Below, piece after piece: positions 33,769 through 37,655 of a stretch of 64,000 nucleotides of DNA. Every line of letters begins with the position of its first letter. Positions within the stretch are counted from its first letter, which is position 1. This DNA comes from Elusimicrobium sp. An273 (GTDB taxonomy: Bacteria > Elusimicrobiota > Elusimicrobia > Elusimicrobiales > Elusimicrobiaceae). The stretch is taken from NCBI RefSeq assembly GCF_002159705.1, contig NZ_NFJD01000004.1:186001-250000 (forward strand), written 5' to 3'. Made by a program: the position numbers and the translations under genes. The notes below the pieces were generated by a model that worked only from the letters and a program-made list of their open reading frames with translations, did no database searches and was not told where the DNA came from.

Positions 33769-34239
33769 TTATTGAAAATTTAAAATTAAATTACTGTTGC
33801 TGTAGCTGTCTGTAAAAGTAGCTTCTTCCATCCCGGCGTTTTTACAGAGTTCTGCATCGCCCGAACAGGCAATATATTTCAACTCGCCGTCTTGATTGAT
33901 GGCATACAAGTCGTAGCTGCCGTCTGCGCGGCTGGTAAAAATAACCGCCGTGTCGGAACTTAACGAATAAAGCAAAGGAAAGCCAAAATACGATCTTTTG
34001 GTCGTATCTCCCCCCAAAAGTCTGTCAGAGGTATCGGCAATACTGTTTTTGACGTATTGGTTGCCTTGCATCACGTATTTGGCATTTACAAAATCGCTGG
34101 CCGCCCGCAAATTGCTGATTCCTTCCAAGGCGCGGCCGCGCTCCATGGACGAATAGTATTTAGGCAGGGCCACCGTTACCAAAATGCCCACCACCACCAT
34201 TACAATCAATAATTCAATTAAAGTAAAACCTTTTTTCAT
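33769..34239 (-). CDS. type IV pilin-like protein
   Basis: A 156-residue prepilin or pseudopilin. A two-lysine leader MKKG is cut before FTLIELLIVMVVVGILVTVALPKYY, with Glu5 of the mature protein present, so it should be processed by a PilD-type peptidase and methylated. The globular C-terminal part contains a cysteine pair (ACSGDAELCKN, near 126-134) that may form a disulfide loop. GGAGGCGTT is correctly placed for this start. It is a lone gene with no pilus-assembly neighbours. Whether it is a major or minor pilin, or belongs to a secretion or uptake system, is not visible here. Confidence 0.88.
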   Translation of the reverse strand: MKKGFTLIELLIVMVVVGILVTVALPKYYSSMERGRALEGISNLRAASDFVNAKYVMQGNQYVKNSIADTSDRLLGGDTTKRSYFGFPLLYSLSSDTAVIFTSRADGSYDLYAINQDGELKYIACSGDAELCKNAGMEEATFTDSYSNSNLILNFQ

Positions 34240-34348
34240 AACGCCTCCTAAGAGATAGTTTATTATATAAATTTGCCCCTTTGCTGAACAGGCCCATACG
34301 TTTGCGCTTGTAATTTTATAGAATAAAAAAGCCCTTCCCGGCAGCGTT

Positions 34349-35557
34349 ATGAACACGAAACATTTGTTTTGGATTTTATTTCTGTTAAACCTGTTTAATT
34401 ATATAGACCGGCAGGTTCTCTATTCCGTATTTCCGCTGTTGCAAACCGATTTGCACCTAAGCGACTGGCAGCTGGGCACCTTGGCCTCGGTCTTTATGCT
34501 GGTGTATATGTGTTACGCTCCCGTCGTGGGCTATTTTGCGGATCGTTCCCCCCGGCAAAAATGGATTGGCGCCAGTGCGCTTATTTGGAGTGCGGCTACC
34601 CTGGCCTGCGCCACGGCAAGAAACTATTTTTCCTTGTTGTTTACGCGGGGCCTTATTGGCGTGGGAGAAGCCGGGTTTACTACCATTGCCCAGCCCTTTT
34701 TAGCGGAGAACTATCCTAAGAAAAAACGGGCCACCATTTTAGCCGTTTTCGGGCTGGCCATGCCGGCCGGCAGCGCCTTAGGCTACATGTGGGGCGGCGC
34801 CATAGGCTTGCATTGGGGGTGGAGAACCGCCTTTTTGCTGGCCGGAGTTCCGGGGCTGGTGCTGGGGATATTATCCCTGACACATCTAAAAGACATTCGC
34901 CGCGCGCAGCAAACCGCCGCCGAAAAACCCTCCCGGCACGATTATAAAGCGCTGTTTCAAAACAAGCCCTTCCTGTTTATTTGCCTGGCCCATGCCATGA
35001 TTACTTTTATTATTGGCGGCCTTTCTGCCTGGATGCCCACTTACCTGCACCGCTACCTGCAAATGGATGTGGCGCAGGCCGGCACATGGTTTGGGGCGTT
35101 GGTTATTTGCTGCGGCGCGGCCGGAACCTACGCCGGAGGAAAACTGGCCGACAAATGGCTGGAATTTTCGCCCAAGGCTTATTTTTGGGTCATCGGAGTA
35201 TCCTTTCTGGCGTTGCTTCCCCCCGCGTGGCTAGGCATACAAACCAACCGCCCCGCACTGGCGCTCGGCTGTTTTGGGCTGGCTATTATTTGCCTCTTTT
35301 TGCCCACCGGCCCCATTGCCGCCGCGTTGGTGGCGTCCACCCGCAACAAAGTGCACGCCATGGCTTTTGCCGTAAATATCTTTATCATCCACGCACTGGG
35401 GGATGCGCTGTCCCCCATGCTTTTGGGGCATGCCTCGGATCTGTGGAATTTAAAAATTGCCGTTTTACTGTGCTCTTTGGCGGCGGTGCCCGGCCTGGTG
35501 TTTACGTGGATGGCCGCCAGCTTTGAGCGACGCCTGCCCGAGCCGCCGCTTCCTTAA
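34349..35557 (+). CDS. major facilitator superfamily transporter
   Basis: A 402-residue inner-membrane transporter with about 12 helices. LFNYIDRQVLYSV in helix 1, GYFADRSPRQKW in the helix 2-3 loop and FTRGLIGVGEAGFTT in helix 4 are typical of the Spinster-like MFS group. The halves are joined by a charged loop (about 185-205), and AYAGGKLADKWLE marks the repeat of the loop motif in the second half. The substrate is unknown. The ATG lacks an obvious ribosome binding site. The gene diverges from the pilin gene, and a TATAGAAT-like box is about 25 bases before the start. Confidence 0.88.
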   Translation: MNTKHLFWILFLLNLFNYIDRQVLYSVFPLLQTDLHLSDWQLGTLASVFMLVYMCYAPVVGYFADRSPRQKWIGASALIWSAATLACATARNYFSLLFTRGLIGVGEAGFTTIAQPFLAENYPKKKRATILAVFGLAMPAGSALGYMWGGAIGLHWGWRTAFLLAGVPGLVLGILSLTHLKDIRRAQQTAAEKPSRHDYKALFQNKPFLFICLAHAMITFIIGGLSAWMPTYLHRYLQMDVAQAGTWFGALVICCGAAGTYAGGKLADKWLEFSPKAYFWVIGVSFLALLPPAWLGIQTNRPALALGCFGLAIICLFLPTGPIAAALVASTRNKVHAMAFAVNIFIIHALGDALSPMLLGHASDLWNLKIAVLLCSLAAVPGLVFTWMAASFERRLPEPPLP

Positions 35558-35639: not shown

Positions 35640-36749
35640 TTAATGTTTGCTATGCGGCGTAAGCGCGGCGCGCCCATGCAGCTGCATATAATTGTACAGG
35701 GCGTTTGCAATACGGGCGCCGCCGTTATCTGCACGAAAGCCGACCGAGGATATAAATCCGTCCGCTCCGTGTTCAAACAAATCTTCCGCCGGCACCTCAT
35801 CGTCCATCAAGGCGCTGTTTACCAAAATGACGGTCTCTTTATCCCCCTCCATGCGCAGGCGGTCTATCATAAAAACGCTGATTCCGTCTTCCAACACGTA
35901 ATCCATTAAAATCACGTCGTATTTTACTTCTTTTGTCCACTCCATTAATTTGGTAAGCGAGTCAAATACCGCCACCCGGCTGCCGGGCCCGAAGAAACCT
36001 TGGGCATTCCAATTACGCGCCCATTCTAAAATTTCCGGATCGTCATTAAGCACGGCAATCGTCATCGCCGGCAGCTGCGCCGCCATTTGGCGGGCCTGGG
36101 TAAATCCTTCCGAGCCGGGAGAAGTGTTTTTCATAGTTAAAGAAGTTCCGTTTGCATCTTTCAATAAAAACTTATTTACATCAAACGAATTTTCCGCACG
36201 CAGCCGCTCCGGCATGGAGATTTTGCCCGAGGCACCAGACCACGCATAGGTCGGCTTTATGGCGTTCATTACCCGTTCAATGTATAATTTGCCAAAATGC
36301 ACGCCCGGATCCCGCGCGCCCACAATGCGTTCCATCCGCTGCAGGGCTTCTTTGCCCTCACGTGCATATTCCCAGCGGGCATTGGCTTCGGCCGCGCTGA
36401 TCTTTTGCGGCTCAAGCAATTGGTAACGAAGAAAAATATCCATTTCTTTTTTGACTTCTAAAAATTTATTTAAATTTTCGCGGTATTGCTCGGATTTGCG
36501 CAGGCTTTCCTCTATGCCGTGTGCCACCAAACTGCTGCGGATTGCCTCCGGCGTTTTAAACTGGGTAATGGCAAGCGGAACGGGATTAGCAAAAAACTCC
36601 CGGGCGGCAATTTGCGAAAACTTGCTTCCGTGGGACACTACACCCGTCCGAATGGCCTGCATCGCAGTGGTATAACGGTTTTGTGCCCGGCTCTCCCCCG
36701 CCAGCAATAGAAAACAAAAAAAGAATAAAACAACCGGCATTTTTTTCAT
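35640..36749 (-). CDS. exported protein with C-terminal receiver domain
   Basis: A 369-residue protein. A standard signal peptide (MKKMPVVLFFFCFLLLAG, cut near SRA|Q, residue 22) is followed by about 200 mostly helical residues without a known domain. From about residue 229 to 352 there is a clear CheY-like receiver: IAVLNDDPEIL with the acid pair 236-237, YDVILMDYVLEDGISV with the phospho-acceptor Asp283, ILVNS with Ser312, and GADGFISS. The conserved lysine of the last motif is Ser335. Receivers normally work in the cytoplasm, so export is unusual. GGAGGAAAT fits the start. It is a single-gene unit upstream of nothing obviously related. Confidence 0.82.
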   Translation of the reverse strand: MKKMPVVLFFFCFLLLAGESRAQNRYTTAMQAIRTGVVSHGSKFSQIAAREFFANPVPLAITQFKTPEAIRSSLVAHGIEESLRKSEQYRENLNKFLEVKKEMDIFLRYQLLEPQKISAAEANARWEYAREGKEALQRMERIVGARDPGVHFGKLYIERVMNAIKPTYAWSGASGKISMPERLRAENSFDVNKFLLKDANGTSLTMKNTSPGSEGFTQARQMAAQLPAMTIAVLNDDPEILEWARNWNAQGFFGPGSRVAVFDSLTKLMEWTKEVKYDVILMDYVLEDGISVFMIDRLRMEGDKETVILVNSALMDDEVPAEDLFEHGADGFISSVGFRADNGGARIANALYNYMQLHGRAALTPHSKH

Positions 36750-36853
36750 GCAAATTTCCTCCTGCCAGGAATTACTTATAAATTAACTCTTTATCCAAAC
36801 GGGCACAAGGGAAAAAAGACCTACTTGTTTGATAGGCCTATAAGTACATAAAA

Positions 36854-36882
36854 ATTCCCCGGGCTCTTCACTCCCGGGGAAT
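36854..36882 (-). terminator. terminator hairpin, repeat unit 1
   Basis: ATTCCCCGGG and CCCGGGGAAT form a ten-base stem, followed by TTTT on the minus strand; an extra copy of the korC terminator. Confidence 0.75.
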
Positions 36883-36959
36883 AAATTTTGCACTTCTTGC
36901 GTCTATTTATTTCACTGCGTCGTATCCGGCCTGCAGCGCTTTTTTCACGAGGCATTAAA

Positions 36960-36988
36960 ATTCCCCGGGCTCTTCGCTCCCGGGGAAT
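36960..36988 (-). terminator. terminator hairpin, repeat unit 2
   Basis: Same stem ATTCCCCGGG / CCCGGGGAAT as in units 1 and 3. Confidence 0.75.
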
Positions 36989-37065
36989 AAATTTTGCACT
37001 TCTTGCATCTATTTATTTTACTGCGTCGTATCCGGCCTGCAGCGCTTTTTTCACGAGGCATTAAA

Positions 37066-37094
37066 ATTCCCCGGGCTCTTCGCTCCCGGGGAAT
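37066..37094 (-). terminator. korC terminator, repeat unit 3
   Basis: The original terminator of the kor operon, 25 bases after the korC stop, with the same ten-base stem and TTTT. Confidence 0.85.
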
Positions 37095-37118
37095 AAATTT
37101 TGCACTTCTTGCGTCTAT

Positions 37119-37655
37119 TTATTTCACTGCGTCGTATCCGGCCTGCAGCGCTTTTTTGTTCAGCTCCAGCATTTCCGGTTTGGCGCGCTTATACACTTTT
37201 TTCATCGCATGCTCTACGCTTGTCAGCGTAACGGCACCCGTTTTTTTAATAAACGCACCCAACGCCACCAGGTTGGCAATACGATCCATCCCCAATTCTT
37301 CCGCAATTTTATTGCACGGCACGCACACCACGGTAATATCGGTGCGGGTGGGGCGGGAGTTGATAAGCGAGCTGTTGATAATCATCAGTCCGCCTTTTTT
37401 GAGCAAGGGCTCAAATTTAGGAAGCGACGGCTCGTTCATAATAATTACCGTATCGGGGGCCGATACAATAGGCGTATAGACTTCCCCGTCCGATATCACC
37501 ACCGAGCAGTTGGCCGTTCCGCCGCGCATTTCCGGCCCGTAAGAAGGCAGCCAGCTGGCGTTTTTCTTGTCTTCCACGCCGGCTTGCGCGAGGAGAATCC
37601 CCGCCGAAATCACGCCTTGTCCGCCGAAACCGGCAATTCTGATTCCTTGATACAT
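37119..37655 (-). CDS. korC: 2-oxoacid:ferredoxin oxidoreductase subunit gamma
   Basis: A 178-residue subunit with the family start IRIAGFGGQGVISAG and the conserved SYGPEMRGGTANCSVVIS stretch. It joins KorA, KorB and the ferredoxin-like KorD in the complex that oxidatively decarboxylates 2-oxoacids to acyl-CoA and reduces ferredoxin. It shares a base with the korB stop, so it is the last gene of the operon. Its final 13 codons and terminator have been copied twice downstream in a tandem repeat, without disturbing this gene. Confidence 0.92.
   Translation of the reverse strand: MYQGIRIAGFGGQGVISAGILLAQAGVEDKKNASWLPSYGPEMRGGTANCSVVISDGEVYTPIVSAPDTVIIMNEPSLPKFEPLLKKGGLMIINSSLINSRPTRTDITVVCVPCNKIAEELGMDRIANLVALGAFIKKTGAVTLTSVEHAMKKVYKRAKPEMLELNKKALQAGYDAVK

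Follow-up and report, generated by a model that had tools for sequence, protein, structure and literature searches.

Few protein domains are commoner than receivers, which are viewed as cytoplasmic because their phosphodonors are. Two of their acids, DD2 and the phospho-accepting aspartate, are direct metal ligands, and the conserved lysine contacts the phosphoryl group. A receiver counts as a pseudo-receiver if any of its five active-site residues (D-D, D, T/S and K) is missing, and in a survey of such domains DD2 was non-acidic in about 80%, with D, T and K each kept in about 65% (PMC12632262). Aspartate-less receivers (ALRs) form a related group (PMC4395418). The main text of neither paper mentions the periplasm or signal peptides. 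Searches of the open-access literature turned up no account of an exported receiver, which agrees with an earlier reading of the present locus (hereafter the original prediction) that knew of no family with a signal peptide ahead of a receiver.

A protein with this layout is encoded in the window, a stretch of 64,000 nucleotides from the gut bacterium Elusimicrobium sp. An273 (Table 1). As judged from its sequence, it begins with a predicted Sec signal peptide, continues in a helical region and closes with a domain of CheY fold, in which D236, D283 and a Ser/Thr are kept but the lysine and one acid (D to N) are lost. Because AGGAGG precedes the ATG by 8 nt, the signal peptide is placed at the real N-terminus. 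A mis-called start or a fusion artefact is ruled out by this strong ribosome-binding site and by the conservation of the layout in orthologs. The gene is flanked by pyruvate:ferredoxin oxidoreductase-type genes on one side and an MFS transporter on the other, the same place that its orthologs occupy. No conserved gene partner, operon partner or nearby histidine kinase was seen, the syntenic loci being flanked by metabolic/transport genes. Upstream of the gene, positions 36847-37130 hold about 2.7 tandem copies of a 106-nt unit. In each copy lie the 3' end of the adjacent oxidoreductase gene and a hairpin that is rich in GC and resembles a terminator.

Table 1. Features of the gene and its predicted product (positions within the window; residue numbers refer to the protein).
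Feature	Position	Strand	Basis
CDS, putative exported pseudo-receiver protein, 369 aa	35640..36749	(-)	Translated ORF; orthologs in syntenic position in other genomes; omega of the receiver part
Shine-Dalgarno AGGAGG, 8 nt before ATG	36758..36763	(-)	Sequence read
Predicted Sec signal peptide, residues 1-22 (MKKMPVVLFFFCFLLLAGESRA, then Q23)	36684..36749	(-)	A22-Q23 invariant; family layout
Conserved helical region, residues 85-196 (Y89, Y109, P166, F194 conserved)	36162..36497	(-)	Column conservation; AlphaFold
C-terminal receiver-like domain, residues 230-363	35661..36062	(-)	Pfam, PDB profile search, AlphaFold and Foldseek
N235-D236, equivalents of CheY D12-D13 (DD1-DD2)	36042..36047	(-)	Alignment to CheY; N 73/82, D 82/82
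D283, equivalent of the phospho-acceptor Asp (CheY D57)	35901..35903	(-)	D in 82/82 and 47/47
S312, equivalent of CheY T87	35814..35816	(-)	S/T in 77/82
S335, replacing CheY K109	35745..35747	(-)	Lys in 1/82; conservation rank 136 of 157

The C-terminal CheY-like receiver of the original prediction is borne out at the level of both sequence and predicted structure. Pfam Response_reg (PF00072) matches residues 232-334 with E=6.5e-7 and 30.0 bits, just under the curated cut-off of 30.2; a six-frame search gave 31.3 bits, slightly over it. PF00072 is also matched individually by 19 of 21 relatives (best 2.9e-13). The absence of any receiver match in a profile search had been named as grounds for rejection; the profile built from the 21 relatives instead retrieved 68 PDB sequences at E<=0.001, nearly all of them receivers. 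AlphaFold models, built from 9 sequences and of moderate confidence only (pLDDT 67 for the whole protein and 70 for the domain alone; pTM 0.73), show a (beta-alpha)5 alternation. In the structural comparison that had been proposed, carried out here with Foldseek, the top matches of both models are receivers (TM 0.6-0.8), and the structural matches include the Ca2+-bound receiver KdpE (1zh2). The Pfam match, the PDB profile search, the relatives' own matches and Foldseek together rule out a chance resemblance. No domain besides Response_reg was found in a Pfam search of the full 369-aa protein, and the helical region, modelled as long helices with pLDDT mostly 70-97, gave nothing significant in Pfam and belongs to no family there.

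The five active-site residues are incomplete, DD1 being N and K being S. Asp283, Ser312 and the replacement of Lys by Ser335 are as first described, whereas the acid pair assigned to residues 236-237 has to be moved: alignment to CheY gives N235-D236, and residue 237 is variable. Among 47 family members with <60% identity, D236 (47/47) and D283 are two of the five invariant columns of 157, Ser/Thr is kept at the S312 position in 94%, and the Lys column is among the most variable. Tyr/Phe is kept at the Y-T coupling position in only 52%. Since the phospho-Asp D283 is invariant, the family is not one of ALRs. The same genome also encodes seven strong ordinary receivers in separate proteins (68-107 bits to PF00072); those that were read (L096 left out) carry a DD/ED pair together with D and Lys, and lack a signal peptide.

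Export was predicted by rule. The putative signal peptide has a K/R n-region, a hydrophobic core and a small-x-A motif, and ends in ..RA with cleavage before Q. A22-Q23 is invariant among nine aligned close relatives, in which the signal region is only 27-52% identical; the receiver part evolves slowly (73-89% identity; omega 0.03-0.1 where estimable). By a simple rule, K/R and a hydrophobic core occur in 68 of the 76 relatives whose 5' end is complete, and in 50 of these 68 the core is followed by A-Q. A better downstream start exists for four of the eight exceptions, which brings the count to 72/76; in the other four members the called ORF shows no clear signal peptide. As background, 33 of 121 ORFs also pass the rule, but A-Q is present in only 4 of these 33. 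Beyond residue 40, cysteine makes up 0.28% of the family, compared with 2.2% of cytoplasm-like neighbours (p=3e-23, an eightfold loss) and 1.0% of exported-like ones. The conserved cleavage sites, the fast-evolving signal sequence and the depletion of cysteine support the predicted export of this receiver-like protein from the cytoplasm, and with it the textbook Sec signal peptide of the original prediction. The cytoplasm is the usual site of receiver action, and residues 1-22 might serve as an anchor for a receiver facing that compartment. This arrangement, which had been raised as a possible refutation, is very unlikely: Lys/Arg before the hydrophobic core predicts an N-in/C-out orientation, the A-Q cleavage sites are conserved, and the cysteine depletion is unlike that of cytoplasmic proteins.

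Around 82 non-redundant relatives share a layout of signal peptide, variable region and receiver at the extreme C-terminus. A search of Elusimicrobiota for the layout had been suggested; when 341 genomes of the phylum were scanned with a profile, convincing relatives turned up in 43 of 66 genus genomes and in two sister-genus genomes. Weaker profile matches elsewhere in the phylum are partial and resemble ordinary receivers, and a single scan with the query protein that reached beyond the phylum returned only uncultured or Elusimicrobia-labelled records. In the genus genomes, members often number 2-5 per genome and lie in arrays; the genome studied here has three paralogs, two of them in tandem. 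Of its four family members, two have type IV pilin-like genes close by (33769-34356 and L004:205-762). The family is vertically inherited, expanded and under strong purifying selection. Its large, paralogous character and the place of the retained Asp pair among its most conserved features were both absent from the original prediction.

Several relatives are giants with predicted export. Five of them (L042, L043, L044, L045 and L061; 1819-2168 aa) have the receiver-like domain as their C-terminal part; each also includes one or two Cys/His domains (mostly HG ... C.SG) that look by eye like clan CD peptidases and have no Pfam or PDB match. In the sister genus, two giants of about 2350 aa (L077:7110-14165 and L078:1005-8078) start with a signal peptide and finish with a receiver-like domain, and the former contains two Trypsin_2 domains. 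A kinase-like stretch seen by eye in the same protein was dropped, as a PDB search gave no support.

The receiver-like domain is always the protein's end (the Asp is followed by 77-116 residues, median 83), in proteins of about 343 to 2357 aa with differing N-terminal parts, and often finishes in NYF.Y....W.R. These properties, together with a SprA-like protein in 87 of 90 Elusimicrobiaceae, would suit a receiver-derived sorting domain that marks exported proteins for outer-membrane crossing or attachment. Like type IX secretion C-terminal domains (TIGR04183), it is a C-terminal domain of exported proteins of varied size. Type IX C-terminal domains, however, have a fold other than the receiver, and a TIGR04183 search of the genome gave no match, so the protein does not qualify as type IX cargo. 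Only a handful of such proteins occur per genome, many genomes with a SprA-like protein are without them, and the invariance of D236/D283 is left unexplained. We consider a sorting role unlikely; a general type IX sorting tag, weakly supported, is kept as a rival. One SprA-like protein (L108:3657-9308 on G000:C1, minus strand; 1884 aa) scores 108.8 bits against TIGR04189, below the cut-off of 200.

The loss of Lys across the family makes normal phospho-switching unlikely on the aligned residues, and predicted export makes phosphorylation by a cytoplasmic histidine kinase unlikely too. A functional extracytoplasmic phospho-switch, supplied by an exported kinase or a small phosphodonor, is highly improbable despite the retention of Asp, DD2 and Ser/Thr: Lys is absent in 81 of 82 members, no kinase partner was found, and we know of no supply of ATP or acyl phosphate in the periplasm. 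In its favour, phosphorylation can survive substitution of DD, T or K (PMC12632262).

We propose that the protein is probably an exported pseudo-receiver, with a metal-stabilised, phosphorylation-independent interaction domain. Once its signal peptide is cleaved, the protein would fold in the periplasm or on the surface, where D236/D283 would coordinate Ca2+ or Mg2+ as a divalent cation; stabilised by this metal, the domain could act as an interaction or regulatory module rather than a phosphorelay receiver. In the giant relatives the domain would terminate multi-domain exported proteins, some with trypsin-like domains. The family-wide loss of Lys and the predicted export features support the earlier suggestion that usual phosphotransfer is lacking and that the fold may be reused for binding. 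That the Asp pair is among the most conserved features speaks for metal binding and against a simple relic of the fold; on the other side, the Asn at DD1 makes the metal site weaker than in normal receivers. The fold might also have been reused purely as a stable scaffold, with structural acids and no metal. The loss of Lys and one acid, and of the Y-T coupling residue in nearly half of the members, fits such a scaffold and suggests that any receiver-type allostery is weak, but core positions vary whereas D236 and D283 never do, and among published pseudo-receivers about 80% have lost the acid at DD2 and about 35% have lost D (PMC12632262); this reading has a low probability. Slightly lower still is that of receivers recruited in this lineage as a C-terminal module of secreted proteins, a module that still switches outside the cell, via Ca2+/Mg2+ binding or even Asp phosphorylation, which, if true, would place two-component-type logic outside the cytoplasm.

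Compared with PF00072 receivers such as CheY, KdpE and PhoP, the family has in common the fold, DD2, the phospho-Asp, the Ser/Thr and a significant profile match; it differs in the loss of Lys, the Asn at DD1, the preceding signal peptide and the absence of a DNA-binding or enzyme output domain. PhyR-type regulators (9cb6, the top Foldseek match of the full model) likewise have a helical region followed by a C-terminal receiver. PhyR is cytoplasmic, however, and with an rmsd of 23 Å over the whole model only the receiver is comparable.

With published pseudo-receivers (PMC12632262) and aspartate-less receivers (PMC4395418) the family shares an incomplete set of the five active-site residues, and by the published definition it belongs to an already known category, the pseudo-receivers (PMC12632262). 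Their regulation in bacteria is an open question according to a 2025 review (PMC12632262), and the family offers a natural experiment in what a receiver can do without phosphotransfer. Its residue pattern is unusual given the frequencies in the survey: published pseudo-receivers usually lose DD2 and often D, whereas here both are invariant and Lys is lost. What is new is the predicted extracytoplasmic location, combined with a pattern in which the two metal-ligand acids are kept and Lys is lost.
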